Assembly (NCBI RefSeq): GCF_029227915.1
Contig: NC_079882.1
Span: 18,548,501 to 18,612,500 of the forward strand
DNA from: Hydractinia symbiolongicarpus
Taxonomy: Eukaryota; Cnidaria; Hydrozoa; Anthoathecata; Hydractiniidae
Length of the DNA stretch: 64,000 nucleotides
Direction: 5' to 3'
Numbering within the stretch: the first letter of the stretch is position 1; each line of letters begins with the position of its first letter. Under the pieces are notes generated by a model. That model had not been told where the DNA came from. It saw only the letters and a program-made list of their open reading frames with translations, and did no database searches. Positions 36,601-64,000 of this stretch are shown piece after piece. A program made the position numbers and the translations under genes.

Positions 36601-39600
36601 TACTCTATTAACCAATACATTTTAGGAAAAAGGAGTCAGGGAGCAAGACAAAGCTGTAGAAGAACTCCAGGATCTAGTTAGAAAACTTGAAGTGGAATCT
36701 CAAGGTTTACATTCTAAACTGAGTATGTCAGACAGTGAAGTTGAAAAGTTGCAAAAAATGTTGGAAGAGTCAGAAGACAAAGCAGCATCCTTTGAAAATG
36801 AATTGCAGAAATTAAACAAGGTAAAATTTCTAACTAAGAATCGAAGTTTTAAATCTATAGGAAAAGGAAACTGAATGTCCAATAAAGGCATTTCATTAGG
36901 CTAAATTAGCATTGTCAAACTTTTATTTTATTTAAATTACAAGGTCAAAAATTACTGCATGTGCAAGCTTAATATTTTGACACTGCACAAACTAGGGAAT
37001 GAAAATATTTCCTTTTCCTGTATGTATATGTAATGCTGCAATTGTTCAACTTTTAAAGGCCTAAAGTAACTTTATCCAAATTACTTAGCAGTTTTAAGCA
37101 ACTGATAAAACATGTGCTCTATGTCAAAACAACTTAATAAAATGAATTTTAATTGAACTTGCCTTAGCTCTAACAAACTTGATAGTATGTTTTTATTTCC
37201 AGGGTATACTTTTTGCACATTAATCTGTGCATACTAGGTAATATGTACAGCTAAAATGTTGCGTCGCATAAAGATGCGACGCAACATTTTATCCTTTTTT
37301 TAGTGGTATGATTCTATATATCCAAAACGTTTACAAAGTATGCAAAATGTATATACTGTTGTCTGGGGCAGTAAAGTTTTAAATGTACCAATACTTAAAT
37401 TTAAAATCTGTCAGTTTTAGAAAATGGAATTTTAAATATGCTTGGCTCTTGTTTTAGCAACATAATTCTAGGCTTGAAGAATTGGGGAAACTGAGTGAGC
37501 GATTGTTACTTAGAGAAAAAGAAGTAGGAGAATTTTCTAACAAATATGAAAAAGCAATGTCTGAGTCTAATATTCTTAAAGATCAATTGGATAAGCTTGG
37601 ATCTGAACTCACAACGGAACTGGACAATGAAAAGAAAGAGAATGAGTCCCAGAAGGTAAACAATATGCTAGTGCGTGTTAAAGAACATAAAAGTACTTAT
37701 TTAAAATAATATGCTTCTTTATTAGGAGAAATGTGAAAAATTAGAGAAAGTGAATGAATTACAAAAAAAAGATCTTGATTCTGCTGAGCTCCAATTAGCA
37801 TCAGTTAGAAGAGAAAAAGAATTTTTACTGCAGGAAAATGAAAACCTAAAGGACGATTTATCACAAATAATGGATGGAAGTAGTAATGAACTGAGTCAGC
37901 AGTTACAAGAAAGAGATGAGAAGGAGCGAATTCTTCACGAGGAGATTGAAAAATTGAAAAACGAAAGTGATGTACTTACTAGAACAATTTCTGACCTTGA
38001 GGCAACAATTGTAAAATTGGATGAAGACGTCAATGCCTCACATGATCAGGTCAATGACTCAAAACAACGTGAGACAAAAATGGAAAAAAGCCTAGGGGAA
38101 ATGAAGGTTGAACGGGAATCTTTAGAGCTCCGAGTTTTGGAAATGGAACAGGCTTTGGATGAGTTTGTAAAATCAACAGAATCTAGAAAGAAATCCAGTG
38201 GGAGGTCTAGTGCAGAATTGCAACCTGCTTGTAAGTCTATTGTTTATATATTCACGTTAAATGCTTATAAAATGTAAGATAAAATTTCTCAAGAAATTTT
38301 TATTTTAAATTCATAATTGCTCTTTTCGACCACTAAACTATTGTAAGATTTCAATGATGCTAATGTTTATTAATGGTTCGTAAATACTCGCATTCGTTAT
38401 TTCTGTGTTCGTATATTTATCAGCATCAGATGGTGATTCTGTTCAATCTTCTCCACAACATGCTCCCACAATGAGTCCTACATTCATTGGTTCAAAAGCT
38501 TTTAGCGATATTTTGAAGGTTTTGGAGGAGGAGAGAATTGACATGGAAAAACGTTTGGAAAGTTCAGTGCAGGTAAAGAATTATTGTATATTGCCACTCT
38601 TGTTAAAAAAAACTCAGGTTTCTATGCAGTACAATGTGATGCATTTTACCAATCATTTTCTGGAAACTAACTGATATTCATTCACATGGATGTACCAATA
38701 TGTTGTATATGCTCCTTTTATTTACTGAGCTAATTTCTTTTGATAACTATCTCTTGATAGCAGCTATTTAAATAAAACTCAAAGTGATGTGTTATCTGTA
38801 ATTAAAAGCAACATAAAAACGAACCTCTTCAATTGCCTTGAAACCTGAAATACTTTTTTTTTAGGAATGCAATGACTTAAAGGAGAGTAATACAAAATTC
38901 GAAAATTTATTACAATCTGAAAAGGAAAAGTTTGATAAAGTTCTTTTGAAAACAGATGAGCTTACCTCATTGCTAGAAAGTAAGGAGGATGAAAAGAATG
39001 AACTGGTTTCCAAACTGGAAGAAGAATTAGGTTTAGTAAAGTATGTCCTTTTTTCTTTTTTTTTAGTTTTAGTTTTAGAGAATGGAACACTATGTTTTGT
39101 TATGTTTTCAGTCTGCATTTCTCTAACCCTAACCCTAACTTCATTTCTCTAATTCCCTGCCCAGAGAATTATTTTTACCTTTTTTGATCTGTTTCTGATT
39201 ATTCCTTGGTGCATTGTGATCATAAGATTGATATTACGTACAACTACCACTTCCACTCTGGACTCCATAGGACGCAACTTTGAGGTAGAACTAACGTGCA
39301 GAAGCATTTGTTCCTAAATTTTAATCATTGCATCTTTTAAAACCAATAAAGTTCCAAAATAAACATACATGGTTCCATGTTAAACAATAAAGTTTGACCT
39401 ACTTCACTTCATTTTTTTATATTTTAAAACAGAAGCACAAAAACCTCTAAATCTTTTTAAGAAAAAAACAAAAACTTGCATGAAATTTTCACACATAGAA
39501 ACATGAAAAAAAATCAAATTGTTTGAGTCGACTAGAACTGTAGAGACTATATTAGAATTTGCAAACTTCTTCCTATTATGTTTTCGGTAAAATCTGGGAA

Positions 39601-42600
39601 GGCAATTCTGGAAAAAAAAGTGAGAATAAATGAATAACATAATTGAGAATAAAAGTTGAAAATAACAACTTTTTTTTGAGTTGTCACCAAAGTTGAGAAA
39701 ATTAATATAAGTTTATATGCAACAGTTTCTGTTCCTTGAAAGCATAAATAAATTGAACAAATTCTGCCTGCTTGTTTTAACTATCACCTATATCCTATTG
39801 TGTTGTTCTGTAAAAGAGTAAGCATAACGGTCATTAGTTATATAGATTTAATTGCATAACGCTAAGGTTGAGAAACATTTAAATACTTTTATGTTATTAT
39901 TAATAAAGAAAATCAAATAGCTGGTTTCTTATTTTTTCCTTTTCCTTCCTGATTATCAGAATTTGTTAAAAAAAGAACTCAAAAGTTTCAAAAATGCTAA
40001 CATCATCAAAACACCTGTTAAATATTTCCCTTTTATCTAAAGAATAATACTGGCATGTTTAATCTCTCCAAAATTATTATTTCTGGTTTTATGAAATGAG
40101 AGAGAACACTGTTTTTCATCTTTGTCCTATTTCCTGAGTCCTAAAACGCCAAAGCTGGCAGTGAATTACCAAAGGCCCATTATGTGTTAATGTATTGTAT
40201 CACCAGTTTCCAATTGTTGCAGGTCATTGTTAAGTGCCGCAGAAGAAAACAGTAAAAATTTGAATAACAAAGAAAAAGAAATGGAAACCTTGATATCAAC
40301 ACTTCAAACAAACCTTCAAACTAAGGTGTGAATCTTCACTGTTGGTAGCAGTCTTTTTATTTTACTGCATTTTGTATTTTAAACATATATAATTGTGCAT
40401 TAGTACCTTCCAAACATAATTTATTCTTAATTGAAAATCTCTATTTCAGGATGATGAAATCAAACTACTCCAACAAAATTCTGCTAGAATTAACAGCATG
40501 TTAGATGAAACAGTCACAAGCACCAAGACAGAAAAAGATACTCTTTTAATGGAAATGACACAGCTCCAAGAAGAGAACGAAAATTTGCAAAATATAAATA
40601 GAGGTGAGAGCTTTTCCTGTGTATTCTTCTTACTGTAATAAAATGTGACTTGCAAATTAATAGAAAGTGTATGGTCAAATGACGTTTAGTGTGTTTAGAG
40701 GTGTATTTTTTTGAAATTTCAGTTTTGTTAATATCAGTTTTTATGCTGTGTAAAAATCTTTTGTTGTTTTGCTACTTCAGGGGAATACTAAAGGGTGCCA
40801 CTTTATATCGGAAAAAAATTTGTTGCCAGTTTTACACTCAACTAATTATTTCTAGTGTTGTAACTGGTTTTTGATTGAATTTTGTAAATTTCACCTTATC
40901 TTGGTTCTCATATATACTGTTGTGAAAATTAAGCCAACCTATAATCAGCCTCAAAACCCAATGTGTTCATAAAATCTATATTGCAACAAAAGAATGGTAC
41001 ACATTTTTGATATAAGAATACCGTTAATTTGTTTTATCAACATGAATATTCTTACCTTTTTGGCAAAAATCATCCTGATCTATTCTGAGTATATTCTTAG
41101 CACAGTTTAGAGTAATAGATCTCAGAATGCAAGCTGGTGTAAAAATCAAGGTGCAATTGGTTAAGCAGCCTAGCTAATTTAACTGACAGACAACCAATTA
41201 GATTTAGTGGCAAAGATAGTTCTAATAAAGTTTGAGAAAAAACAATTACATTGATTTAATCACAAAAAAGCGAACTTGTTCTTTTTTCCTTATAGTCCAT
41301 TTAGGATGCAAGCCAATAGGGTTATTTTTAGGATATCCTTAATTCTTTTTTCTAATTTCATATTAAACATTCCTACAGAGTATATTCTTATAAAAAAAAG
41401 TGCTTAATTGAAATTTCCTATCTTAAACTGGTACCACCATTAGTATTTCCCTGGCCTATTGTTATTTGTAAGTTTCAATTGTAACAAATATCACAGAATG
41501 ACCAAAGATTTCTCTGACTAACACTAAACGTCAGTTTGATGTATACCACAAAATTTTTAATTTGTCATTTACAAATAAATAGTTGACAATTGGAAAAAAC
41601 CCGACCTTTTTTTACATGACAGATCTCCATAAAACAAATGACAAACTACTTGTACAACATCAACAACTTCTTAATGATCAAGATCTCCACATTAATCAGA
41701 TTAATATACTGCAAAACAGAAATAATGAAATGAATGATTCCTGCAAAAAACTAAAATCAGAAAATGATTCCAATAAATCAACACTGTGCCAAAATAATAT
41801 AATGCTGGAAAATACAAAAGATGCTTTGGCAAAAACCTCCACAGAGCTTGAGAATATCTCTAGCGAGCTTCTTCAAACTAAATTTGCTTTGCAAGAAGGC
41901 AAAGAGGAATTGGAGGGTTTGAAATGCGACAGTAGCAAGAAAATTACCGACCTGGAGTTGCAACTTAAAGCAAGAATCGCTGAACTGTCTGAGACTAATG
42001 CTTTGTTTCAACAGACTTCAAACGAACTGGAAGAGAAGGTGTCTGCCCTGGACAACGCAAATGGTCAGATAGACACTAAAACCCAGAGGCTGGAGCAACT
42101 GACAAGGGAGTTGAAAGAAACTAAAGACAACCTAGAATCAGAGTTAGAGCAGATAAAAGCTACACTTGAGGAAAGCGAAAGAAACCTGGAAGCAACGGCC
42201 ACGGAACTGGAAGAGACCCGGGAGAGTTTTGAAAATTCAAAGGCAGAGTCTACAGCCAAAGTTACTGCTCTCGAGGACAGTTTAAGATCTTTGGAAAGCA
42301 AATTGGAAGATTTGCAGAATACTACAAGGGAATCCATCGACTTGAAGGAGCTGGAGGTTGCTTCGTTGCGTGATGAGCTCGAAGGTGCGAAAAAAGAGGT
42401 GTTGCGATTAGAAGTGTCTGCGGAGGAGAAGAGCAGGATCATTGCAGAAAAGAGCAACGAGGTGAACTCTGCTTTCGAGTCTATACAGCAGTCTTCGAAC
42501 CAAGTTGAATCCCTGCAAGAGGAGGTCTTCTTGAAAAGCGAAGACATTAAAAGGCTGGCAGCCGAAAAGTCGGATTTGGAAAACAACCTTTCTGTAGTTT

Positions 42601-45600
42601 CAGAGGAAAGAAAAGAGTTGCAATCGGAATTAGCGAAAACTAAGGCGAACCTGGATGAAAGCGAGAAGAATTTAGAAGCTACGGTCACTGAGCTTGAAGA
42701 GACGTGCAAGAATTTGGAAAGTACGACAATGGATTCTTCCAAAAAAATGGCCGAGTTGGAAAGCTGCAAACACGGCTTGGAAGAAAAAGTTAGGCTAGGG
42801 GAGGAATCCTTGTTGGCGACAAAACTTGAGCTGGAAACAAGCACGTCAGCCCTGGAAACGGCCCAGGCACAACTTCGCGATGCGAAGGATTCTTTTGCTA
42901 ACACGAGCCGTGCGCTGGAAAATACAAAAGATGCTTTGGCAAAAACTTCCACAGAGCTTGAGAATATCTCTAGCGAGCTTCTTCAAACTAAATTTGCTTT
43001 GCAAGAAGGCAAAGAGGAACTGGAGGGTTTGAAATGCGACAGTAGCAAGAAAATTACCGACCTGGAGTTGCAACTTGAAGCAAGAATCGCTGAACTGTCT
43101 GAGACTAATGCTTTGTTTCAACAGACTTCAAACGAACTGGAAGAGAAGGTGTCTGCCCTGGACAACGCAAATGGTCAGATAGACACTAAAACCCAGAGGC
43201 TGGAGCAACTGACAAGGGAGTTGAAAGAAACTAAAGACAACCTAGAATCAGAGTTAGAGCAGATAAAAGCTACACTTGAGGAAAGCGAAAGAAACCTGGA
43301 AGCAACGGCCACGGAACTGGAAGAGACCCGGGAGAGTTTTGAAAATTCAAAGGCAGAGTCTACAGCCAAAGTTACTGCTCTCGAGGACAGTTTAAGATCT
43401 TTGGAAAGCAAATTGAAAGATTTGCAGAATACTACAAGGGAATCCATCGACTTGAAGGAGCTGGAGGTTGCTTCGTTGCGTGATGAGCTCGAAGGTGCGA
43501 AAAAAGAGGTGTTGCGATTAGAAGTGTCTGCGGAGGAGAAGAGCAGGATCATTGCAGAAAAGAGCAACGAGGTGAACTCTGCTTTCGAGTCTATACAGCA
43601 GTCTTCGAACCAAGTTGAATCCCTGCAAGAGGAGGTCTTCTTGAAAAGCGAAGACATTAAAAGGCTGGCAGCCGAAAAGTCGGATTTGGAAAACAACCTT
43701 TCTGTAGTTTCAGAGGAAAGAAAAGAGTTGCAATCGGAATTAGCGAAAACTAAGGCGAACCTGGATGAAAGCGAGAAGAATTTAGAAGCTACGGTCACTG
43801 AGCTTGAAGAGACGTGCAAGAATTTGGAAAGTACGACAATGGATTCTTCCAAAAAAATGGCCGAGTTGGAAAGCTGCAAACACGGCTTGGAAGAAAAAGT
43901 TAGGCTAGGGGAGGAATCCTTGTTGGCGACAAAACTTGAGCTGGAAACAAGCACGTCAGCCCTGGAAACGGCCCAGGCACAACTTCGCGATGCGAAGGAT
44001 TCTTTTGCTAACACGAGCCGTGCGCTGGAAAATACAAAAGATGCTTTGGCAAAAACTTCCACAGAGCTTGAGAATATCTCTAGCGAGCTTCTTCAAACTA
44101 AATTTGCTTTGCAAGAAGGCAAAGAGGAACTGGAGGGTTTGAAATGCGACAGTAGCAAGAAAATTACCGACCTGGAGTTGCAACTTGAAGCAAGAATCGC
44201 TGAACTGTCTGAGACTAATGCTTTGTTTCAACAGACTTCAAACGAACTGGAAGAGAAGGTGTCTGCCCTGGACAACGCAAATGGTCAGATAGACACTAAA
44301 ACCCAGAGGCTGGAGCAACTGACAAGGGAGTTGAAAGAAACTAAAGACAACCTAGAATCAGAGTTAGAGCAGATAAAAGCTACACTTGAGGAAAGCGAAA
44401 GAAACCTGGAAGCAACGGCCACGGAACTGGAAGAGACCCGGGAGAGTTTTGAAAATTCAAAGGCAGAGTCTACAGCCAAAGTTACTGCTCTCGAGGACAG
44501 TTTAAGATCTTTGGAAAGCAAATTGGAAGATTTGCAGAATACTACAAGGGAATCCATCGACTTGAAGGAGCTGGAGGTTGCTTCGTTGCGTGATGAGCTC
44601 GAAGGTGCGAAAAAAGAGGTGTTGCGATTAGAAGTGTCTGCGGAGGAGAAGAGCAGGATCATTGCAGAAAAGAGCAACGAGGTGAACTCTGCTTTCGAGT
44701 CTATACAGCAGTCTTCGAACCAAGTTGAATCCCTGCAAGAGGAGGTCTTCTTGAAAAGCGAAGACATTAAAAGGCTGGCAGCCGAAAAGTCGGATTTGGA
44801 AAACAACCTTTCTGTAGTTTCAGAGGAAAGAAAAGAGTTGCAATCGGAATTAGCGAAAACTAAGGCGAACCTGGATGAAAGCGAGAAGAATTTAGAAGCT
44901 ACGGTCACTGAGCTTGAAGAGACGTGCAAGAATTTGGAAAGTACGACAATGGATTCTTCCAAAAAAATGGCCGAGTTGGAAAGCTGCAAACACGGCTTGG
45001 AAGAAAAAGTTAGGCTAGGGGAGGAATCCTTGTTGGCGACAAAACTTGAGCTGGAAACAAGCACGTCAGCCCTGGAAACGGCCCAGGCACAACTTCGCGA
45101 TGCGAAGGATTCTTTTGCTAACACGAGCCGTGCGCTGGAAAATACAAAAGATGCTTTGGCAAAAACTTCCACAGAGCTTGAGAATATCTCTAGCGAGCTT
45201 CTTCAAACTAAATTTGCTTTGCAAGAAGGCAAAGAGGAACTGGAGGGTTTGAAATGCGACAGTAGCAAGAAAATTACCGACCTGGAGTTGCAACTTGAAG
45301 CAAGAATCGCTGAACTGTCTGAGACTAATGCTTTGTTTCAACAGACTTCAAACGAACTGGAAGAGAAGGTGTCTGCCCTGGACAACGCAAATGGTCAGAT
45401 AGACACTAAAACCCAGAGGCTGGAGCAACTGACAAGGGAGTTGAAAGGAACTAAAGACAACCTAGAATCAGAGTTTGAGCAGATAAAAGCTACACTTGAG
45501 GAAAGCGAAAGAAACCTGGAAGCAACGGCCACGGAACTGGAAAAGACCCGGGAGAGTTTTGAAAATTCAAAGGCAGAGTCTACAGCCAAAGTTACTGCTC

Positions 45601-48600
45601 TCGAGGACAGTTTAAGATCTTTGGAAAGCAAATTGGAAGATTTGCAGAATACTACAAGGGAATCCATCGACTTGAAGGAGCTGGAGGTTGCTTCGTTGCG
45701 TGATGAGCTCGAAGGTGCGAAAAAAGAGGTGTTGCGATTAGAAGTGTCTGCGGAGGAGAAGAGCAAGATCATTGCAGAAAAGAGCAACGAGGTGAACTCT
45801 GCTTTCGAGTCTATACAGCAGTCTTCGAACCAAGTTGAATCCCTGCAAGAGGAGGTCTTCTTGAAAAGCGAAGACATTAAAAGGCTGGCAGCCGAAAAGT
45901 CGGATTTGGAAAACAACCTTTCTGTAGTTTCAGAGGAAAGAAAAGAGTTGCAATCGGAATTAGCGAAAACTAAGGCGAACCTGGATGAAAGCGAGAAGAA
46001 TTTAGAAGCTACGGTCACTGAGCTTGAAGAGACGTGCAAGAATTTGGAAAGTACGACAATGGATTCTTCCAAAAAAATGGCCGAGTTGGAAAGCTGCAAA
46101 CACGGCTTGGAAGAAAAAGTTAGGCTAGGGGAGGAATCCTTGTTGGCGACAAAACTTGAGCTGGAAACAAGCACGTCAGCCCTGGAAACGGCCCAGGCAC
46201 AACTTCGCGATGCGAAGGATTCTTTTGCTAACACGAGCCGTGCGCTGGAAAATACAAAATATGCTTTGGCAAAAACTTCCACAGAGCTTGAGAATATCTC
46301 TAGCGAGCTTCTTCAAACTAAATTTGCTTTGCAAGAAGGCAAAGAGGAACTGGAGGGTTTGAAATGCGACAGTAGCAAGAAAATTACCGACCTGGAGTTG
46401 CAACTTGAAGCAAGAATCGCTGAACTGTCTGAGACTAATGCTTTGTTTCAACAGACTTCAAACGAACTGGAAGAGAAGGTGTCTGCCCTGGACAACGCAA
46501 ATGGTCAGATAGACACTAAAACCCAGAGGCTGGAGCAACTGACAAGGGAGTTGAAAGAAACTAAAGACAACCTAGAATCAGAGTTAGAGCAGATAAAAGC
46601 TACACTTGAGGAAAGCGAAAGAAACCTGGAAGCAACGGCCACGGAACTGGAAGAGACCCGGGAGAGTTTTGGAAATTCAAAGGCAGAGTCTACAGCCAAA
46701 GTTACTGCTCTCGAGGACAGTTTAAGATCTTTGGAAAGCAAATTGGAAGATTTGCAGAATACTACAAGGGAATCCATCGACTTGAAGGAGCTGGAGGTTG
46801 CTTCGTTGCGTGATGAGCTCGAAGGTGCGAAAAAAGAGGTGTTGCGATTAGAAGTGTCTGCGGAGGAGAAGAGCAGGATCATTGCAGAAAAGAGCAACGA
46901 GGTGAACTCTGCTTTCGAGTCTATACAGCAGTCTTCGAACCAAGTTGAATCCCTGCAAGAGGAGGTCTTCTTGAAAAGCGAAGACATTAAAAGGCTGGCA
47001 GCCGAAAAGTCGGATTTGGAAAACAACCTTTCTGTAGTTTCAGAGGAAAGAAAAGAGTTGCAATCGGAATTAGCGAAAACTAAGGCGAACCTGGATGAAA
47101 GCGAGAAGAATTTAGAAGCTACGGTCACTGAGCTTGAAGAGACGTGCAAGAATTTGGAAAGTACGACAATGGATTCTTCCAAAAAAATGGCCGAGTTGGA
47201 AAGCTGCAAACACGGCTTGGAAGAAAAAGTTAGGCTAGGGGAGGAATCCTTGTTGGCGACAAAACTTGAGCTGGAAACAAGCACGTCAGCCCTGGAAACG
47301 GCCCAGGCACAACTTCGCGATGCGAAGGATTCTTTTGCTAACACGAGCCGTGCGCTGGAAAATACAAAAGATGCTTTGGCAAAAACTTCCACAGAGCTTG
47401 AGAATATCTCTAGCGAGCTTCTTCAAACTAAATTTGCTTTGCAAGAAGGCAAAGAGGAACTGGAGGGTTTGAAATGCGACAGTAGCAAGAAAATTACCGA
47501 CCTGGAGTTGCAACTTGAAGCAAGAATCGCTGAACTGTCTGAGACTAATGCTTTGTTTCAACAGACTTCAAACGAACTGGAAGAGAAGGTGTCTGCCCTG
47601 GACAACGCAAATGGTCAGATAGACACTAAAACCCAGAGGCTGGAGCAACTGACAAGGGAGTTGAAAGAAACTAAAGACAACCTAGAATCAGAGTTAGAGC
47701 AGATAAAAGCTACACTTGAGGAAAGCGAAAGAAACCTGGAAGCAACGGCCACGGAACTGGAAGAGACCCGGGAGAGTTTTGAAAATTCAAAGGCAGAGTC
47801 TACAGCCAAAGTTACTGCTCTCGAGGACAGTTTAAGATCTTTGGAAAGCAAATTGAAAGATTTGCAGAATACTACAAGGGAATCCATCGACTTGAAGGAG
47901 CTGGAGGTTGCTTCGTTGCGTGATGAGCTCGAAGGTGCGAAAAAAGAGGTGTTGCGATTAGAAGTGTCTGCGGAGGAGAAGAGCAGGATCATTGCAGAAA
48001 AGAGCAACGAGGTGAACTCTGCTTTCGAGTCTATACAGCAGTCTTCGAACCAAGTTGAATCCCTGCAAGAGGAGGTCTTCTTGAAAAGCGAAGACATTAA
48101 AAGGCTGGCAGCCGAAAAGTCGGATTTGGAAAACAACCTTTCTGTAGTTTCAGAGGAAAGAAAAGAGTTGCAATCGGAATTAGCGAAAACTAAGGCGAAC
48201 CTGGATGAAAGCGAGAAGAATTTAGAAGCTACGGTCACTGAGCTTGAAGAGACGTGCAAGAATTTGGAAAGTACGACAATGGATTCTTCCAAAAAAATGG
48301 CCGAGTTGGAAAGCTGCAAACACGGCTTGGAAGAAAAAGTTAGGCTAGGGGAGGAATCCTTGTTGGCGACAAAACTTGAGCTGGAAACAAGCACGTCAGC
48401 CCTGGAAACGGCCCAGGCACAACTTCGCGATGCGAAGGATTCTTTTGCTAACACGAGCCGTGCGCTGGAAAATACAAAAGATGCTTTGGCAAAAACTTCC
48501 ACAGAGCTTGAGAATATCTCTAGCGAGCTTCTTCAAACTAAATTTGCTTTGCAAGAAGGCAAAGAGGAACTGGAGGGTTTGAAATGCGACAGTAGCAAGA

Positions 48601-51600
48601 AAATTACCGACCTGGAGTTGCAACTTGAAGCAAGAATCGCTGAACTGTCTGAGACTAATGCTTTGTTTCAACAGACTTCAAACGAACTGGAAGAGAAGGT
48701 GTCTGCCCTGGACAACGCAAATGGTCAGATAGACACTAAAACCCAGAGGCTGGAGCAACTGACAAGGGAGTTGAAAGAAACTAAAGACAACCTAGAATCA
48801 GAGTTAGAGCAGATAAAAGCTACACTTGAGGAAAGCGAAAGAAACCTGGAAGCAACGGCCACGGAACTGGAAGAGACCCGGGAGAGTTTTGAAAATTCAA
48901 AGGCAGAGTCTACAGCCAAAGTTACTGCTCTCGAGGACAGTTTAAGATCTTTGGAAAGCAAATTGAAAGATTTGCAGAATACTACAAGGGAATCCATCGA
49001 CTTGAAGGAGCTGGAGGTTGCTTCGTTGCGTGATGAGCTCGAAGGTGCGAAAAAAGAGGTGTTGCGATTAGAAGTGTCTGCGGAGGAGAAGAGCAGGATC
49101 ATTGCAGAAAAGAGCAACGAGGTGAACTCTGCTTTCGAGTCTATACAGCAGTCTTCGAACCAAGTTGAATCCCTGCAAGAGGAGGTCTTCTTGAAAAGCG
49201 AAGACATTAAAAGGCTGGCAGCCGAAAAGTCGGATTTGGAAAACAACCTTTCTGTAGTTTCAGAGGAAAGAAAAGAGTTGCAATCGGAATTAGCGAAAAC
49301 TAAGGCGAACCTGGATGAAAGCGAGAAGAATTTAGAAGCTACGGTCACTGAGCTTGAAGAGACGTGCAAGAATTTGGAAAGTACGACAATGGATTCTTCC
49401 AAAAAAATGGCCGAGTTGGAAAGCTGCAAACACGGCTTGGAAGAAAAAGTTAGGCTAGGGGAGGAATCCTTGTTGGCGACAAAACTTGAGCTGGAAACAA
49501 GCACGTCAGCCCTGGAAACGGCCCAGGCAAAACTTCGCGATGCGAAGGATTCTTTTGCTAACACGAGCCGTGCGCTGGAAAATACAAAAGATGCTTTGGC
49601 AAAAACTTCCACAGAGCTTGAGAATATCTCTAGCGAGCTTCTTCAAACTAAATTTGCTTTGCAAGAAGGCAAAGAGGAACTGGAGGGTTTGAAATGCGAC
49701 AGTAGCAAGAAAATTACCGACCTGGAGTTGCAACTTGAAGCAAGAATCGCTGAACTGTCTGAGACTAATGCTTTGTTTCAACAGACTTCAAACGAACTGG
49801 AAGAGAAGGTGTCTGCCCTGGACAACGCAAATGGTCAGATAGACACTAAAACCCAGAGGCTGGAGCAACTGACAAGGGAGTTGAAAGAAACTAAAGACAA
49901 CCTAGAATCAGAGTTAGAGCAGATAAAAGCTACACTTGAGGAAAGCGAAAGAAACCTGGAAGCAACGGCCACGGAACTGGAAGAGACCCGGGAGAGTTTT
50001 GAAAATTCAAAGGCAGAGTCTACAGCCAAAGTTACTGCTCTCGAGGACAGTTTAAGATCTTTGGAAAGCAAATTGAAAGATTTGCAGAATACTACAAGGG
50101 AATCCATCGACTTGAAGGAGCTGGAGGTTGCTTCGTTGCGTGATGAGCTCGAAGGTGCGAAAAAAGAGGTGTTGCGATTAGAAGTGTCTGCGGAGGAGAA
50201 GAGCAGGATCATTGCAGAAAAGAGCAACGAGGTGAACTCTGCTTTCGAGTCTATACAGCAGTCTTCGAACCAAGTTGAATCCCTGCAAGAGGAGGTCTTC
50301 TTGAAAAGCGAAGACATTAAAAGGCTGGCAGCCGAAAAGTCGGATTTGGAAAACAACCTTTCTGTAGTTTCAGAGGAAAGAAAAGAGTTGCAATCGGAAT
50401 TAGCGAAAACTAAGGCGAACCTGGATGAAAGCGAGAAGAATTTAGAAGCTACGGTCACTGAGCTTGAAGAGACGTGCAAGAATTTGGAAAGTACGACAAT
50501 GGATTCTTCCAAAAAAATGGCCGAGTTGGAAAGCTGCAAACACGGCTTGGAAGAAAAAGTTAGGCTAGGGGAGGAATCCTTGTTGGCGACAAAACTTGAG
50601 CTGGAAACAAGCACGTCAGCCCTGGAAACGGCCCAGGCACAACTTCGCGATGCGAAGGATTCTTTTGCTAACACGAGCCGTGCGCTGGAAAATACAAAAG
50701 ATGCTTTGGCAAAAACTTCCACAGAGCTTGAGAATATCTCTAGCGAGCTTCTTCAAACTAAATTTGCTTTGCAAGAAGGCAAAGAGGAACTGGAGGGTTT
50801 GAAATGCGACAGTAGCAAGAAAATTACCGACCTGGAGTTGCAACTTGAAGCAAGAATCGCTGAACTGTCTGAGACTAATGCTTTGTTTCAACAGACTTCA
50901 AACGAACTGGAAGAGAAGGTGTCTGCCCTGGACAACGCAAATGGTCAGATAGACACTAAAACCCAGAGGCTGGAGCAACTGACAAGGGAGTTGAAAGAAA
51001 CTAAAGACAACCTAGAATCAGAGTTAGAGCAGATAAAAGCTACACTTGAGGAAAGCGAAAGAAACCTGGAAGCAACGGCCACGGAACTGGAAGAGACCCG
51101 GGAGAGTTTTGAAAATTCAAAGGCAGAGTCTACAGCCAAAGTTACTGCTCTCGAGGACAGTTTAAGATCTTTGGAAAGCAAATTGAAAGATTTGCAGAAT
51201 ACTACAAGGGAATCCATCGACTTGAAGGAGCTGGAGGTTGCTTCGTTGCGTGATGAGCTCGAAGGTGCGAAAAAAGAGGTGTTGCGATTAGAAGTGTCTG
51301 CGGAGGAGAAGAGCAGGATCATTGCAGAAAAGAGCAACGAGGTGAACTCTGCTTTCGAGTCTATACAGCAGTCTTCGAACCAAGTTGAATCCCTGCAAGA
51401 GGAGGTCTTCTTGAAAAGCGAAGACATTAAAAGGCTGGCAGCCGAAAAGTCGGATTTGGAAAACAACCTTTCTGTAGTTTCAGAGGAAAGAAAAGAGTTG
51501 CAATCGGAATTAGCGAAAACTAAGGCGAACCTGGATGAAAGCGAGAAGAATTTAGAAGCTACGGTCACTGAGCTTGAAGAGACGTGCAAGAATTTGGAAA

Positions 51601-54600
51601 GTACGACAATGGATTCTTCCAAAAAAATGGCCGAGTTGGAAAGCTGCAAACACGGCTTGGAAGAAAAAGTTAGGCTAGGGGAGGAATCCTTGTTGGCGAC
51701 AAAACTTGAGCTGGAAACAAGCACGTCAGCCCTGGAAACGGCCCAGGCACAACTTCGCGATGCGAAGGATTCTTTTGCTAACACGAGCCGTGCGCTGGAA
51801 AATACAAAAGATGCTTTGGCAAAAACTTCCACAGAGCTTGAGAATATCTCTAGCGAGCTTCTTCAAACTAAATTTGCTTTGCAAGAAGGCAAAGAGGAAC
51901 TGGAGGGTTTGAAATGCGACAGTAGCAAGAAAATTACCGACCTGGAGTTGCAACTTGAAGCAAGAATCGCTGAACTGTCTGAGACTAATGCTTTGTTTCA
52001 ACAGACTTCAAACGAACTGGAAGAGAAGGTGTCTGCCCTGGACAACGCAAATGGTCAGATAGACACTAAAACCCAGAGGCTGGAGCAACTGACAAGGGAG
52101 TTGAAAGGAACTAAAGACAACCTAGAATCAGAGTTAGAGCAGATAAAAGCTACACTTGAGGAAAGCGAAAGAAACCTGGAAGCAACGGCCACGGAACTGG
52201 AAAAGACCCGGGAGAGTTTTGAAAATTCAAAGGCAGAGTCTACAGCCAAAGTTACTGCTCTCGAGGACAGTTTAAGATCTTTGGAAAGCAAATTGAAAGA
52301 TTTGCAGAATACTACAAGGGAATCCATCGACTTGAAGGAGCTGGAGGTTGCTTCGTTGCGTGATGAGCTCGAAGGTGCGAAAAAAGAGGTGTTGCGATTA
52401 GAAGTGTCTGCGGAGGAGAAGAGCAGGATCATTGCAGAAAAGAGCAACGAGGTGAACTCTGCTTTCGAGTCTATACAGCAGTCTTCGAACCAAGTTGAAT
52501 CCCTGCAAGAGGAGGTCTTCTTGAAAAGCGAAGACATTAAAAGGCTGGCAGCCGAAAAGTCGGATTTGGAAAACAACCTTTCTGTAGTTTCAGAGGAAAG
52601 AAAAGAGTTGCAATCGGAATTAGCGAAAACTAAGGCGAACCTGGATGAAAGCGAGAAGAATTTAGAAGCTACGGTCACTGAGCTTGAAGAGACGTGCAAG
52701 AATTTGGAAAGTACGACAATGGATTCTTCCAAAAAAATGGCCGAGTTGGAAAGCTGCAAACACGGCTTGGAAGAAAAAGTTAGGCTAGGGGAGGAATCCT
52801 TGTTGGCGACAAAACTTGAGCTGGAAACAAGCACGTCAGCCCTGGAAACGGCCCAGGCACAACTTCGCGATGCGAAGGATTCTTTTGCTAACACGAGCCG
52901 TGCGCTGGAAAATACAAAAGATGCTTTGGCAAAAACTTCCACAGAGCTTGAGAATATCTCTAGCGAGCTTCTTCAAACTAAATTTGCTTTGCAAGAAGGC
53001 AAAGAGGAACTGGAGGGTTTGAAATGCGACAGTAGCAAGAAAATTACCGACCTGGAGTTGCAACTTGAAGCAAGAATCGCTGAACTGTCTGAGACTAATG
53101 CTTTGTTTCAACAGACTTCAAACGAACTGGAAGAGAAGGTGTCTGCCCTGGACAACGCAAATGGTCAGATAGACACTAAAACCCAGAGGCTGGAGCAACT
53201 GACAAGGGAGTTGAAAGGAACTAAAGACAACCTAGAATCAGAGTTAGAGCAGATAAAAGCTACACTTGAGGAAAGCGAAAGAAACCTGGAAGCAACGGCC
53301 ACGGAACTGGAAAAGACCCGGGAGAGTTTTGAAAATTCAAAGGCAGAGTCTACAGCCAAAGTTACTGCTCTCGAGGACAGTTTAAGATCTTTGGAAAGCA
53401 AATTGAAAGATTTGCAGAATACTACAAGGGAATCCATCGACTTGAAGGAGCTGGAGGTTGCTTCGTTGCGTGATGAGCTCGAAGGTGCGAAAAAAGAGGT
53501 GTTGCGATTAGAAGTGTCTGCGGAGGAGAAGAGCAGGATCATTGCAGAAAAGAGCAACGAGGTGAACTCTGCTTTCGAGTCTATACAGCAGTCTTCGAAC
53601 CAAGTTGAATCCCTGCAAGAGGAGGTCTTCTTGAAAAGCGAAGACATTAAAAGGCTGGCAGCCGAAAAGTCGGATTTGGAAAACAACCTTTCTGTAGTTT
53701 CAGAGGAAAGAAAAGAGTTGCAATCGGAATTAGCGAAAACTAAGGCGAACCTGGATGAAAGCGAGAAGAATTTAGAAGCTACGGTCACTGAGCTTGAAGA
53801 GACGTGCAAGAATTTGGAAAGTACGACAATGGATTCTTCCAAAAAAATGGCCGAGTTGGAAAGCTGCAAATACGGCTTGGAAGAAAAAGTTAGGCTAGGG
53901 GAGGAATCCTTGTTGGCGACAAAACTTGAGCTGGAAACAAGCACGTCAGCCCTGGAAACGGCCCAGGCACAACTTCGCGATGCGAAGGATTCTTTTGCTA
54001 ACACGAGCCGTGCGCTGGAAAATACAAAAGATGCTTTGGCAAAAACTTCCACAGAGCTTGAGAATATCTCTAGCGAGCTTCTTCAAACTAAATTTGCTTT
54101 GCAAGAAGGCAAAGAGGAACTGGAGGGTTTGAAATGCGACAGTAGCAAGAAAATTACCGACCTGGAGTTGCAACTTGAAGCAAGAATCGGTGAACTGTCT
54201 GAGACTAATGCTTTGTTTCAACAGACTTCAAACGAACTGGAAGAGAAGGTGTCTGCCCTGGACAACGCAAATGGTCAGATAGACACTAAAACCCAGAGGC
54301 TGGAGCAACTGACAAGGGAGTTGAAAGAAACTAAAGACAACCTAGAATCAGAGTTAGAGCAGATAAAAGCTACACTTGAGGAAAGCGAAAGAAACCTGGA
54401 AGCAACGGTCACGGAACTGGAAGAGACCCGGGAGAGTTTTGGAAATTCAAAGGCAGAGTCTACAGCCAAAGTTACTGCTCTCGAGGACAGTTTAAGATCT
54501 TTGGAAAGCAAATTGAAAGATTTGCAGAATACTACAAGGGAATCCATCGACTTGAAGGAGCTGGAGGTTGCTTCGTTGCGTGATGAGCTCGAAGGTGCGA

Positions 54601-57600
54601 AAAAAGAGGTGTTGCGATTAGAAGTGTCTGCGGAGGAGAAGAGCAGGATCATTGCAGAAAAGAGCAACGAGGTGAACTCTGCTTTCGAGTCTATACAGCA
54701 GTCTTCGAACCAAGTTGAATCCCTGCAAGAGGAGGTCTTCTTGAAAAGCGAAGACATTAAAAGGCTGGCAGCCGAAAAGTCGGATTTGGAAAACAACCTT
54801 TCTGTAGTTTCAGAGGAAAGAAAAGAGTTGCAATCGGAATTAGCGAAAACTAAGGCGAACCTGGATGAAAGCGAGAAGAATTTAGAAGCTACGGTCACTG
54901 AGCTTGAAGAGACGTGCAAGAATTTGGAAAGTACGACAATGGATTCTTCCAAAAAAATGGCCGAGTTGGAAAGCTGCAAACACGGCTTGGAAGAAAAAGT
55001 TAGGCTAGGGGAGGAATCCTTGTTGGCGACAAAACTTGAGCTGGAAACAAGCACGTCAGCCCTGGAAACGGCCCAGGCACAACTTCGCGATGCGAAGGAT
55101 TCTTTTGCTAACACGAGCCGTGCGCTGGAAAATACAAAAGATGCTTTGGCAAAAACTTCCACAGAGCTTGAGAATATCTCTAGCGAGCTTCTTCAAACTA
55201 AATTTGCTTTGCAAGAAGGCAAAGAGGAACTGGAGGGTTTGAAATGCGACAGTAGCAAGAAAATTACCGACCTGGAGTTGCAACTTGAAGCAAGAATCGG
55301 TGAACTGTCTGAGACTAATGCTTTGTTTCAACAGACTTCAAACGAACTGGAAGAGAAGGTGTCTGCCCTGGACAACGCAAATGGTCAGATAGACACTAAA
55401 ACCCAGAGGCTGGAGCAACTGACAAGGGAGTTGAAAGAAACTAAAGACAACCTAGAATCAGAGTTAGAGCAGATAAAAGCTACACTTGAGGAAAGCGAAA
55501 GAAACCTGGAAGCAACGGTCACGGAACTGGAAGAGACCCGGGAGAGTTTTGGAAATTCAAAGGCAGAGTCTACAGCCAAAGTTACTGCTCTCGAGGACAG
55601 TTTAAGATCTTTGGAAAGCAAATTGGAAGATTTGCAGAATACTACAAGGGAATCCATCGACTTGAAGGAGCTGGAGGTTGCTTCGTTGCGTGATGAGCTC
55701 GAAGGTGCGAAAAAAGAGGTGTTGCGATTAGAAGTGTCTGCGGAGGAGAAGAGCAAGATCATTGCAGAAAAGAGCAACGAGGTGAACTCTGCTTTCGAGT
55801 CTATACAGCAGTCTTCGAACCAAGTTGAATCCCTGCAAGAGGAGGTCTTCTTGAAAAGCGAAGACATTAAAAGGCTGGCAGCCGAAAAGTCGGATTTGGA
55901 AAACAACCTTTCTGTAGTTTCAGAGGAAAGAAAAGAGTTGCAATCGGAATTAGCGAAAACTAAGGCGAACCTGGATGAAAGCGAGAAGAATTTAGAAGCT
56001 ACGGTCACTGAGCTTGAAGAGACGTGCAAGAATTTGGAAAGTACGACAATGGATTCTTCCAAAAAAATGGCCGAGTTGGAAAGCTGCAAATACGGCTTGG
56101 AAGAAAAAGTTAGGCTAGGGGAGGAATCCTTGTTGGCGACAAAACTTGAGCTGGAAACAAGCACGTCAGCCCTGGAAACGGCCCAGGCACAACTTCGCGA
56201 TGCGAAGGATTCTTTTGCTAACACGAGCCGTGCGCTGGAAAATAAAAAAGATGCTTTGGCAAAAACTTCCACAGAGCTTGAGAATATCTCTAGCGAGCTT
56301 CTTCAAACTAAATTTGCTTTGCAAGAAGGCGAAGAGGAATTGGAGGGTTTGAAATGCGACAGTAGCAAGAAAATTACCGACCTGGAGTTGCAACTTGAAG
56401 CAAGAATCGCTGAACTGTCTGAGACTAATGCTTTGTTTCAACAGACTTCAAACGAACTGGAAGAGAAGGTGTCTGCCCTGGACAACGCAAATGGTCAGAT
56501 AGACACTAAAACCCAGAGGCTGGAGCAACTGACAAGGGAGTTGAAAGAAACTAAAGACAACCTAGAATCAGAGTTGGAGCAGATAAAAGCTACACTTGAG
56601 GAAAGCGAAAGAAACCTGGAAGCAACGGCCACGGAACTGGAAGAGACCCGGGAGAGTTTTGAAAATTCAAAGGCAGAGTCTACAGCCAAAGTTACTGCTC
56701 TCGAGGACAGTTTAAGATCTTTGGAAAGCAAATTGGAAGATTTGCAGAATACTACAAGGGAATCCATCGACTTGAAGGAGCTGGAGGTTGCTTCGTTGCG
56801 TGATGAGCTCGAAGGTGCGAAAAAAGAGGTGTTGCGATTAGAAGTGTCTGCGGAGGAGAAGAGCAGGATCATTGCAGAAAAGAGCAACGAGGTGAACTCT
56901 GCTTTCGAGTCTATACAGCAGTCTTCGAACCAAGTTGAATCCCTGCAAGAGGAGGTCTTCTTGAAAAGCGAAGACATTAAAAGGCTGGCAGCCGAAAAGT
57001 CGGATTTGGAAAACAACCTTTCTGTAGTTTCAGAGGAAAGAAAAGAGTTGCAATCGGAATTAGCGAAAACTAAGGCGAACCTGGATGAAAGCGAGAAGAA
57101 TTTAGAAGCTACGGTCACTGAGCTTGAAGAGACGTGCAAGAATTTGGAAAGTACGACAATGGATTCTTCCAAAAAAATGGCCGAGTTGGAAAGCTGCAAA
57201 CACGGCTTGGAAGAAAAAGTTAGGCTAGGGGAGGAATCCTTGTTGGCGACAAAACTTGAGCTGGAAACAAGCACGTCAGCCCTGGAAACGGCCCAGGCAC
57301 AACTTCGCGATGCGAAGGATTCTTTTGCTAACACGAGCCGTGCGCTGGAAAATACAAAAGATGCTTTGGCAAAAACTTCCACAGAGCTTGAGAATATCTC
57401 TAGCGAGCTTCTTCAAACTAAATTTGCTTTGCAAGAAGGCAAAGAGGAACTGGAGGGTTTGAAATGCGACAGTAGCAAGAAAATTACCGACCTGGAGTTG
57501 CAACTTGAAGCAAGAATCGCTGAACTGTCTGAGACTAATGCTTTGTTTCAACAGACTTCAAACGAACTGGAAGAGAAGGTGTCTGCCCTGGACAACGCAA

Positions 57601-60600
57601 ATGGTCAGATAGACACTAAAACCCAGAGGCTGGAGCAACTGACAAGGGAGTTGAAAGAAACTAAAGACAACCTAGAATCAGAGTTAGAGCAGATAAAAGC
57701 TACACTTGAGGAAAGCGAAAGAAACCTGGAAGCAACGGCCACGGAACTGGAAAAGACCCGGGAGAGTTTTGAAAATTCAAAGGCAGAGTCTACAGCCAAA
57801 GTTACTGCTCTCGAGGACAGTTTAAGATCTTTGGAAAGCAAATTGGAAGATTTGCAGAATACTACAAGGGAATCCATCGACTTGAAGGAGCTGGAGGTTG
57901 CTTCGTTGCGTGATGAGCTCGAAGGTGCGAAAAAAGAGGTGTTGCGATTAGAAGTGTCTGCGGAGGAGAAGAGCAGGATCATTGCAGAAAAGAGCAACGA
58001 GGTGAACTCTGCTTTCGAGTCTATACAGCAGTCTTCGAACCAAGTTGAATCCCTGCAAGAGGAGGTCTTCTTGAAAAGCGAAGACATTAAAAGGCTGGCA
58101 GCCGAAAAGTCGGATTTGGAAAACAACCTTTCTGTAGTTTCAGAGGAAAGAAAAGAGTTGCAATCGGAATTAGCGAAAACTAAGGCGAACCTGGATGAAA
58201 GCGAGAAGAATTTAGAAGCTACGGTCACAGAGCTTGATGAGACGTGCAAGAATTTGGAAAGGACGACAAAGCATGGTGAATTGGAATTACGCAAGTTTAA
58301 GAAAAAAGCCAACATGGGATTTTTGAAGAAAGTCGAAGCTCTTGAATCAATTAAATCGGAATTAGCAAAGAGTGCCATTAAAATTAGTGAATTGCAAGCC
58401 GAGTTGGATATGGAGATAGGTGCTAATAGAGATTCGTTGAACAAAGTTTCCTTTTTGGAGGAAAGTTTATATATTAAGCGAGATGAAATTAATAATTTAG
58501 TTAAAGAGATTAAAGAGCATGCTACAATTATTTCTCGTATTGTTTCAGGTTTTAAGAAAAAGTCCTTGCTTAATGATCATTCCGTACTGCTAGAGCAATA
58601 TGCATCTGAAATTCTGATGTTAAAGGAGCAAATTGATCTGAAAGAAAATGTAATTAATGCAGAAAGACATGATCTGGAAATCGTTAAAAGCTTATGCGAA
58701 AATATGAAGGAAGCCTTGTTGTCATCAGAGCAGATGGTGTACGATCTAAATGAAAAGTTGAAAATTAAGGAAGGTCAGTTAGATAATATTTCTTTGGAAG
58801 TTTCTTTTTTTAAAAAAAATAACGTTACTTTAGAAGATTCTAAGGACACTGTTTGTGTGTTATACGAAGAACAATTGGGTGAATCAAATACAAAATTGAG
58901 AGCATCAGTTTCTGAGTTAAAGGTTGCTGAACAAAATGTTGAGATGTTGTTAAAGGAAAGGAAATCGTTAAAAGAAGAACTTTCTGAAGTTAGTGAGAAA
59001 TCGAAAGATAGGGAGAATTATGTTGAAAAATTAGTGTTCCAGTTAAAGTCTTTAAGAGAACATCTAATGGAGAAAGATGAGTTGATTCAGAGTACAATTG
59101 AAGAATTTTGCCTTAAAACTCAAGAAACTGATGATTTAAGCAGTATTCTTGCAACACGGGATAGAGAAGTATTAGAAATCAGTCAGAACCTCGAGGAACG
59201 ACAAGTCGAGCTGCTACAAAGTAAGCAGCAAGTTGACGAGTTGACTGATCAGCTTAAAGAAGTCAATGAGCTATTAAAGAAACAAGAGAGTCGTTACGAG
59301 GCATTATTGCTTGAATGTGAGCAATACCAGGTTAAGAGCAAGGAAAACGAGTTAGAAATAACTGCACTAAACATGAATTGCAATGAAAAGGATGACGAAA
59401 TCAAAAAACTTGAAGTGAATCTACACGAGTCATCTCGCCTGATTGAAGATAAGATTAACGAAGTGAATACATCCGTTGCTGACGTAGAAAGCTCTAAGAA
59501 GGAATCTGAAGAAATAATAGATGAATTTAAGACCAAGATCGCTTTGTTAGAAAAGAAAATGGCTGAAAAAGAGGAAGTGTTGTCTGATTTAAACTTGCAA
59601 CACGAGAAAAACCAACAACTTTTGACAGATAAGAGAGAGCAAGAGTCTCTGGATAACGAAAGGATAGATACATTGAATAATCAGTTGGAAATCGTAAAAT
59701 TGAAGTTGGCTGACTTAAATAAGGAGAACGGGATCTTTAAAGAGAAGTTGGATATCCAAAACAAGGAACACCATGAATATGTCAAAAGCAAGGATAAAGA
59801 ATTATGCAGCAATATCACACAAGTAGAGAGCCTGGAAAAGGAGAATCAGGAGCAAAAGAAAACTCTGAAAGAATTTAAGAAAAAAGTCGGCAAAAGCTTT
59901 AAGAAAAAAATCACAACGATGAATGAGAAAGAGGAAAGTCTTCAAGCGGAAATTAAATCTATGAAAAAACAGTATGAGAAGACAACGAAGGATCTAGAAG
60001 TTGCAACAGAAAATTTAATCGCAGCGCGTGAAGAAGTTGGTAGTTTGAACGAAAGTCTTGCGGTACGGGATAGAGAAGCATTAGAAATCAGTCAAAACCT
60101 CGAGGAACGACAAGTTGAGCTGCTACAAAGTAAGCAGCAAGTTGACGAGTTGACTGATCAGCTTAAAGAAGTCAATGAGCTATTAAAGAAACAAGAGAGT
60201 CGTTACGAGGGATTATTGCTTGAATGTGAGCAATACCAGGTTAAGAGCAAGGAAAACGAGTTAGAAATAACTGCACTAAACATGAATTGTAATGAAAAGG
60301 ATGACGAAATCAAAAAACTTGAAGTGAATCTACACGAGTCATCTCGCCTGATTGAAGATAAGATTAACGATGTGAATACATCCGTTGCTGACGTAGAAAG
60401 CTCTAAGAAGGAATCTGAAGAAATATTAGATGAATTGTTAGAAAAGAAAATGCCTGAAAAAGAGGAAGCGTTGTCTGATTTAAACTTGCAACACGAGAAA
60501 AACCAACAACTTTTTACCTCAGGCGAAAAGCGCTTTACTTTAAATGATAAAACACTTTTCATTTCGCCCGGAGTTGGTGCTAAGGCTGATGTTGTTGATT

Positions 60601-63600: not shown

Positions 63601-63654
63601 TAAACAGCGCAGCCTTGGAGCAACAGCTGACAGAGTTGCAGCAAATGTTTAACG
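33604..63654 (+). CDS. Giant coiled-coil protein, golgin-like (5' part; continues past window)
   Basis: Thirteen exons: 33604-33738, 34226-34294, 34374-34661, 36090-36317, 36430-36525, 36626-36820, 37458-37655, 37726-38230, 38424-38572, 38865-39040, 40223-40325, 40450-40603 and 41623-63654. All junctions are GT-AG and keep frame. About 8,109 residues are encoded here. The last exon ends AACG|GTAAGT, so more exons follow. The product is almost all Glu/Lys/Leu/Ser heptads. Non-helical linkers occur at about residues 560-605 (SSPQHAPTMSPTF), at 60514-60690 and at 62690-62900. Residues about 827-6314 are a 370-residue tandem repeat. The start MWGRINQMVSGEQQ resembles the amphipathic N-terminus of golgin-245/golgin-97 (MFKKLKQKISEEQQ in golgin-245), so a vesicle-tethering golgin is the best guess. 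Giantin-, centrosome- or myosin-tail-like proteins remain possible. No membrane segment, GRIP domain or motor is within the window. Confidence 0.85.
34662..36089 (+). other. Intron 3 of the giant gene
   Basis: 1.4 kb of AT-rich intron. No ORF, mobile-element domain or RNA gene was recognised. The words CTGGTGGTTCTCTG and CTGCTGGTT recur near 35940-36030. Confidence 0.5.
37252..37291. repeat. 18-bp perfect hairpin in intron 6 of the giant gene
   Basis: TAAAATGTTGCGTCGCAT (37252-37269) is followed by the loop AAAG and the exact complement at 37274-37291. The centre of each arm is GC-rich (TTGCGTCGCAT), unlike the surrounding AT-rich intron. It could be a tiny palindromic element or a transcribed hairpin. 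Confidence 0.85.
39041..40222 (+). other. Intron 10 of the giant gene, with short telomere-like run
   Basis: 1.2-kb intron. Near its start is CTAACCCTAACCCTAAC (39123-39139), about three units of the TTAGGG telomere repeat in complement. No other structure was recognised. Confidence 0.5.
40604..41622 (+). other. Intron 12 of the giant gene
   Basis: About 1 kb of AT-rich intron before the giant exon. No ORF or repeat family was recognised. Confidence 0.5.
41804..58269 (+). repeat. Coding tandem array, 14.8 copies of a 1,110-bp unit
   Basis: Copies begin at 41804 plus multiples of 1,110: 14 full copies and a fifteenth of 926 bp (57344-58269). There is no insertion or deletion between copies, so each encodes exactly 370 residues. 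Copies differ by a handful of bases, mostly replacements such as ESKLEDL/ESKLKDL, ELKETKD/ELKGTKD, ELEETRES/ELEKTRES, SFENS/SFGNS, EKSRII/EKSKII, SCKHGL/SCKYGL and RIAEL/RIGEL. Within a unit the segments ATLEESERNLEATATELEE and ANLDESEKNLEATVTELEE are themselves related, so the unit is an older internal duplication. All of it is predicted long coiled coil. Confidence 0.97.
59157..60515 (+). repeat. Second coding duplication, 909-bp period, 1.5 copies
   Basis: Segment 59157-59626 recurs at 60066-60515 with few changes. Both encode ISQNLEERQVELLQSKQQVD through NLQHEKNQQL. The second copy lacks 18 bp (the FKTKIA region), so frame is kept. It also has changes such as ALLLE/GLLLE, KINEV/KINDV and MAEKE/MPEKE. 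It is independent of the 1,110-bp array and ends where a non-helical linker begins. Confidence 0.9.
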
Positions 63655-64000
63655 GTAAGTGTGTTGGCTTATTTATCTCCAGTATATTGGTCACAGGTTA
63701 ATTCAATCTTACAGTCGCCCAATTCGTATTTTAACTGAAATAAATATAACTTTATATGATTTAATATAATATAAGTCCGTAATTTAAAAACATAAAATAT
63801 ATAAGAAATGCATGTTTAAAAAAAGCCCTGGTTGTTCATCGAATTATTAGTATTTGCACACGCGTAAACGTCCTTGATGATGTTGGTTTTTTTAATAGAT
63901 TTCCATGCCATGTCACATTTTTTAAGTTCATGTATGTGTAATGATAATATAAACGTATGTAGAAAATATAATTAATAAATATTAATTATAGATAAAAAAA
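63655..64000 (+). other. Start of intron 13 of the giant gene
   Basis: Begins GTAAGT and is strongly AT-rich to the window edge. The reading frame stops at 63701 if not spliced, which would give only NGKCVGLFISSILVTG. Splicing is preferred because the donor is a full consensus and codon composition changes at it. Confidence 0.7.

Follow-up and report, generated by a model that had tools for sequence, protein, structure and literature searches.

Large tandem units encoded within one exon are known from filaggrin and epiplakin. Exon 3 of filaggrin (FLG) carries tandem coding units of 972-975 bp whose copy number varies within and between species (PMC5225520), and epiplakin (EPPK1), likewise from a single exon, is a long protein made of large repeats, whose number differs between species and probably also within them (PMC8782857). 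The giant golgins, such as giantin and golgin-245, owe their length mainly to coiled coil, and golgins capture vesicles by short conserved terminal parts (PMC5267433). Among cnidarians, tandem repeats are abundant in the proteins of Nematostella, and the maximal repeat length is 341 residues in Nematostella and 472 residues in Hydra (PMC2805694). Here we describe a locus of the hydrozoan Hydractinia symbiolongicarpus that resembles each of these systems in some respect: a predicted giant gene, most of which lies in a 64,000-bp stretch of contig NC_079882.1 (C8:18548501-18612500; the whole stretch is called the window, and all coordinates are window positions), contains an array of almost 15 near-identical, in-frame units within one predicted exon. 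The array and its exon are as follows.

41804..58269, plus strand: array of 14.83 in-frame units of 1,110 bp (370 residues), from self-identity at a lag of 1,110 and a protein search of the own genome
41623..63654, plus strand: exon 13 (predicted), the array exon, 22,032 nt, stop-free, from the open frame, an AG acceptor and a GTAAGT donor
58270..63654, plus strand: unique 3' part of exon 13, from protein database and own-genome searches

Structure of the array

The array comprises 16,466 bp and accounts for about 5,490 residues of the encoded protein. Its register is fixed, with unit codons beginning at 41802 + 1110n, and it has zero indels and zero stops. The identity at a lag of 1,110 is 0.9968 over 41804-58269 (neighbouring units are approximately 99.7% alike), and, multiples of 1,110 apart, no lag within 20-5999 gave an identity above 0.37. 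The identity begins at 41804, and the last unit is mismatched from 58229 and gone past 58270. The surrounding open frame, 41583..63701, contains 7,372 codons; an AG acceptor precedes 41623 and a GTAAGT donor follows 63654 as the borders of the exon, with phases that fit the neighbouring predicted exons, and it is from this frame and these splice sites that the array was judged to occupy a single exon. The lag identity and the open frame bear out the first-pass annotation of this DNA, which had described a 1,110-bp unit at constant spacing, in frame and free of indels, inside one predicted exon.

A protein search with one unit against the own genome (480.9-Mb assembly, 76 contigs, as for all own-genome searches) returned at least 16 matches: all 15 units plus a fragment of 64 residues from a different chromosome. 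Regarding an older duplication inside the unit, blastp found none and blastn just one 13-nt match; lags 486 and 624 are slightly raised in the self-identity scan of the array, and the unit weakly matches the rest of the protein twice (30-31% identity, E about 1e-4 and 8e-4).

Each unit also contains a minus-strand open frame of 305 codons, at 42065-42982 and then every 1,110 bp to 58576, with 323 codons in the last unit. These frames are taken as a by-product of coiled-coil codon composition.

Chromosome 1 carries, at C1:5625046-5625639, a 185-bp copy of unit nt 16-200 that departs from the consensus at one position and is flanked by two transposon pieces. At six other loci (on C12, C4, C3, C7, C1 and C2) these two pieces lie about 2.6-3.2 kb apart in reversed order, so the order at C1:5625046-5625639 is circularly permuted. 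The patch with the unit piece lies within a region that has a Tc5-type transposase domain (PF03221), and it interrupts copies of that element found at other places. The element at C12:9876000-9881500, which contains both transposon pieces, has 125-bp direct repeats that are 99% alike, and its frames are read as gag-like, reverse-transcriptase-like and tyrosine-recombinase-like; presumably it resembles the DIRS-type retroelements, which use circular intermediates.

Probable exchange among the units

In the comparison of the units, the partial unit 15 is represented by just its first 894 nt, which excludes E299D, S307R and like 3' differences, and the first codon is excluded for unit 1 in the variant listing and for all units in the pairwise-diversity analysis. 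Among the units, 17 sites are variable, with 18 changes (4 synonymous and 14 nonsynonymous), and the pairwise difference has a mean of 0.38% and a maximum of 0.81% (0-9 substitutions, in non-periodic order). Over the 891 nt common to the 15 units, the mean synonymous diversity (0.0034) is similar to the mean nonsynonymous diversity (0.0044), which indicates that the units are uniform as DNA and not through selection on residues.

The four-gamete test is failed by 17 of the 120 pairs of two-allele sites; all 17 include site 505, 635 or 970, and few events may suffice. Unit 13 is a mosaic that carries A60G and A133V as in unit 12, R212K as in unit 4 and H324Y as in unit 11. Because so few sites are unlikely to have mutated repeatedly, we infer that units have probably exchanged stretches by unequal crossing over and/or gene conversion. 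Adjacent units resemble each other only a little more than distant ones do (0.0030 versus 0.0037). The recent expansion or homogenisation proposed earlier is supported by the low diversity, the four-gamete failures and the alike synonymous and nonsynonymous values.

The genome heterozygosity of the species, of which strain 291-10 was sequenced, is 1.33% (PMC11067881), or 3.5 times the unit diversity. Provided that mutation rates are alike, the common ancestry of the units is therefore more recent than that of the two alleles at an average locus. Alleles with different numbers of units are likely on this ground, and copy number probably varies between individuals as well.

The third-position GC content is 0.50 in the array (41805-58269), 0.396 in the rest of exon 13 (58272-63653) and 0.22 just before the array. 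The higher value in the array is such as GC-biased gene conversion might leave, which is suggestive only. The 18 changes are without GC bias (6 towards GC, 9 towards AT and 3 neither, counted by eye with the majority letter as ancestral), and GC-biased conversion was set aside. Codon usage of the array correlates moderately (0.66) with that of the rest of exons 13-15.

Coiled-coil character and length of the predicted rod

In a simple heptad parse of the unit, 62% of the residues at a/d positions (n=105) are L, I, V, M or F, versus 7% elsewhere, and the parse needs one skip (residue 43) and three stutters (residues 153, 173 and 289). The heptad score per residue is 0.118 for the unit versus -0.020 (standard deviation 0.012) in 20 shuffles. 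Along the predicted protein, the strongest hydrophobic period is 3.4-3.7 in 401 of 452 windows of 84 residues, versus 41 in one shuffle, and residues 591-7042 are free of proline. The whole predicted protein appears to be mostly coiled coil with short non-coiled breaks, and the heptad parse and the periodicity agree with the coiled-coil prediction made for the units in the first pass.

An AlphaFold2 model of one unit, made with no alignment, contains helices at 2-174, 179-307 and 312-369, with breaks at 175-178 and 308-311 (mean predicted local distance difference test score, pLDDT, 81). It is used for helix content only, because its predicted template modelling score (pTM) is 0.24. At 0.15 nm per residue, arithmetic gives length ceilings of approximately 0.8 micrometre for the array and 1.9 micrometre for the whole protein. 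The earlier estimate, approximately 0.8 micrometre for the array at approximately 55 nm for each unit, thus stands as an upper bound, but a straight rod does not follow from it, given the two model breaks, the skip and the three stutters.

The Pfam scan covered exons 1-12, 14 and 15, the C-terminal end and, within exon 13, the first one and a half units and the remainder of the exon. The only match above its cut-off is DUF1664 (58.4 bits versus 34.6), on the stretch that includes these one and a half units; it was set aside as a coiled-coil look-alike. The same applies to the sub-cut-off or weak matches to TPR_MLP1_2, CALCOCO1, Cast, KIF21A, Rod_CreS, ATG16, CENP-F and others, the KIF21A-like coiled-coil models being among those that are below cut-off or weak. 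Motor, calponin-homology, plakin, FYVE and PACT domains are absent from the Pfam matches of the scanned parts, and a sequence search of the PDB with the unit gave no match.

Gene model and conservation of exon 15

Open frames and splice sites were joined by eye into a gene model, all 19 exons and 18 introns of which are predictions. The predicted gene spans 33604-79294, with the last six exons past the window end. All 18 introns are GT-AG with compatible phases, and the coding sequence of 38,181 nt has no internal stop; the predicted product is an acidic protein of 12,726 residues and 1.45 MDa with an isoelectric point of 4.7. Its further features, from the hand-built model except for the duplication, which comes from sequence self-comparison, are listed below.

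33604..33738, plus strand: exon 1 (predicted), first ATG after an in-frame stop, protein start MWGRINQ
34226..34294, plus strand: exon 2 (predicted)
34374..34661, plus strand: exon 3 (predicted)
36090..36317, plus strand: exon 4 (predicted)
36430..36525, plus strand: exon 5 (predicted)
36626..36820, plus strand: exon 6 (predicted)
37458..37655, plus strand: exon 7 (predicted)
37726..38230, plus strand: exon 8 (predicted)
38424..38572, plus strand: exon 9 (predicted), Pro/Ser linker followed by coiled-coil-like sequence
38865..39040, plus strand: exon 10 (predicted)
40223..40325, plus strand: exon 11 (predicted)
40450..40603, plus strand: exon 12 (predicted)
59122..60517, plus strand: second duplication within exon 13
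64684-73205, plus strand: exon 14 (predicted), giant, 8,522 nt, downstream of the window
73305-78311, plus strand: exon 15 (predicted), giant, 5,007 nt, downstream of the window

The interval 41623-63654, which the first pass had stated, is one open predicted exon, but the gene is larger, with two further giant exons downstream. The second duplication in exon 13 pairs a 300-nt segment at 59122 with one at 60031 (94%), and an 83-nt segment at 59544 with one at 60435 (96%). The start codon is a prediction, and a further upstream exon with another start is possible.

The last 770 residues of exon 15 have 8 database relatives with 31-43% identity over 89-100% of that part. In an alignment of exon 15 with these relatives (9 sequences), 167 of 1,836 columns are invariant, including the 15-residue run TLRAMLEQEVKDHEK. 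At the modelled end of the exon, (V/L)(Q/K)V is found in 8 of 8 relatives, as would follow if each frame read through into the same conserved intron donor. This conservation provides independent support for a real gene. In the own genome, exon 15 matches this locus only, as does the 800-residue part of exon 13 past the array (58500-60899). The evidence from open frames, splice sites and relatives indicates that the locus is very probably a real protein-coding gene of H. symbiolongicarpus with a recent, homogenised array.

A profile of exon 15 matches 15 PDB sequences at E up to 0.1, including myosin rods, crescentin and CCDC40, which we read as generic coiled coils. Foldseek with an AlphaFold2 model of the last 300 residues of exon 15 (mean pLDDT 71.5, no alignment) gave two matches, both with E >7, which were not retained. 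No Rfam family was found in the window at gathering scores, and no work on this gene was found in the literature by title or abstract start, supplements being outside the scope of that search.

Proposed explanation and alternatives

We consider it somewhat probable that the locus encodes a giant, mostly coiled-coil protein in which a 370-residue segment has been amplified to about 15 copies and homogenised by DNA exchange, which would yield an elongated tether or scaffold. A segment in the middle of the protein would have been amplified in tandem, and exchange (unequal crossing over and/or gene conversion) would hold the units near-identical at the DNA level rather than through selection on residues. 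Each whole unit would add 370 residues (at most about 55 nm) and leave the frame intact. The conserved C-terminal part encoded by exon 15 may bind partners, with the array providing length. The entire series of units is presumably transcribed and translated.

Several observations weigh against this explanation. The gene model is a prediction from open frames and splice sites. A search for relatives of the array exon that took its words from residues 5400-7300 scored 724 candidates (E up to 0.001, about 4,040-12,850 residues in length), and a second one with the unique part of exon 13 by itself scored 7,980 (E up to 0.01, about 990-3,140 residues in length). Neither yielded a relative; both scored only the candidates that shared the most words, with exons of about 3,140-4,040 residues outside their coverage. 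Conservation is therefore established for exon 15 rather than for the array exon. The Pfam scan found no known domain that marks a cellular site, and the role as a long intracellular rod, tether or scaffold, to which we would give slightly less than an even chance, is a guess by analogy. Furthermore, the similar synonymous and nonsynonymous diversities give no sign of selection on the array residues, and the absence of stops among the 18 changes is uninformative (P about 0.4). A bolder version, a heritable molecular ruler, in which segregating unit-number alleles would set the reach of a micrometre-scale rod in steps of at most about 55 nm and exchange would keep the units interchangeable, is speculative and rather unlikely.

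The best of the rival explanations is neutral instability, in which a coding minisatellite has grown and been homogenised by replication or recombination errors within a length-tolerant coiled coil, the copy number having no function. The alike synonymous and nonsynonymous diversities fit this explanation, as does the fraction of nonsynonymous changes (14/18), which is near the constraint-free expectation (0.68-0.73 of changes, stops apart); the proteome of Nematostella is likewise rich in tandem repeats, few of which are common to other species (PMC2805694). However, the preserved frame, the lack of indels and the absence of prolines over residues 591-7042 show that the rod is at least kept translatable. 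Donor-like motifs, of which the unit has 0 versus 2.7 expected from synonymous shuffles (3.8% of 1000 as low), point the same way, although this test is weak because the control exons are uneven: the rest of exon 13 has 15 versus 19.5 expected, exon 14 has 38 versus 30.6 and exon 15 has 8 versus 12.8. Neutral growth is a serious competitor that we nonetheless regard as the less favoured account, with perhaps a modest chance of being correct.

Another candidate identity is a golgin akin to giantin or to the GRIP-domain members, which would tether vesicles at the Golgi and be elongated by the array. The heptad pattern found in the predicted protein would suit a long dimeric coiled coil, and the short non-coiled breaks in a very long coiled coil are as expected of a golgin; several lysine-rich KLKxKxKK-like stretches are present as well, which we take to be golgin-like. 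In contrast, a GRIP or other anchoring domain is absent from the Pfam matches (anchors outside Pfam would escape), and there is no transmembrane segment, the highest 19-residue Kyte-Doolittle mean being 1.06. The predicted N terminus, MWGRINQ, fits neither the M-S-W-L/F nor the Phe2 motif as given in PMC5267433, a comparison that had the GCC88 type outside its scope. We regard membership among the golgins as improbable.

That the array is an assembly artefact, the true locus having one, a few or a very different number of units, is very improbable. The HSymV2.0 assembly of clone 291-10 was made from 66x HiFi reads with a read N50 of 13.2 kb (PMC10411563), and one haplotype is represented. This N50 is below the 16.5 kb of the array, so few reads can span it and the assembly does not fix the exact number of units per haplotype. 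Nevertheless, no exact match between two parts of the array exceeds 2,293 bp, far under the read N50, which means that accurate reads of several kb have a single placement, and the 0-9 substitutions between units follow no periodic order. In addition, C8 (33,075,650 bp) corresponds by rank to scaffold 8, which is a single contig without joins, and the HiFi reads are public as SRR23493933 (PMC10411563).

A decaying or untranscribed gene copy with an open frame, which the similar synonymous and nonsynonymous unit diversities would also fit, is scarcely credible in view of the 18/18 GT-AG introns with compatible phases, the 38,181 stop-free nucleotides, the single-locus status of exon 15 and 58500-60899, and the 8 relatives in which exon 15 is conserved.

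Sequences near the gene

Satellite DNA of a similar 53-bp unit forms two arrays 15 kb apart, at 16876-17125 and 32128-32620. Between them are two Ty1/copia-like stretches with RVT_2 matches on the minus strand, at 18698-20890 and 27544-29229. The next large open frame downstream of the gene, 82778-85303, has 842 codons and its first methionine in MDELEWLECNETLEDIF; presumably it belongs to a CABIT/GAREM-type gene, which it resembles.

Comparison with known systems

The array shares with filaggrin the tandem coding units in one exon, and the two differ in uniformity, since the human FLG units have a nucleotide diversity (pi) of 0.077 (PMC5225520), about 20 times the 0.0038 of the array. For FLG, the authors prefer birth-and-death over concerted evolution (PMC5225520), whereas exchange among units is suggested for the array here. 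Filaggrin is, moreover, a processed polyprotein (PMC5053269) and not a coiled coil, unlike the array protein. Epiplakin is built from plakin repeat domains, whereas in Hydractinia the repeated segment is coiled coil and contains no known domain. Neither the GRIP domain nor the transmembrane segment or capture motifs of golgins were found in the Hydractinia protein by Pfam, hydrophobicity or published motifs, and golgin heptads are usually diverged rather than arranged in long identical modules. Most repeats of Nematostella have units of 5-20 residues and cover about 150 residues (PMC2805694), versus the approximately 5,490 residues of the array.

If the proposed explanation is true, length would be coded as a module count, which would offer a handle on the question of proteins as rulers and on the evolution of such length. 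Provided that mutation rates are the same, the closeness of the units, greater than that between alleles at an average locus, suggests that copy number has changed recently; and since Hydractinia is a genetic model with public HiFi reads (SRR23493933), unit counting is feasible now. With long near-identical units in one open frame and probable exchange among them, the locus falls into the known class of single-exon coding arrays of the filaggrin and epiplakin type, and what is unusual is a coiled-coil unit so long and so uniform in a protein so large.

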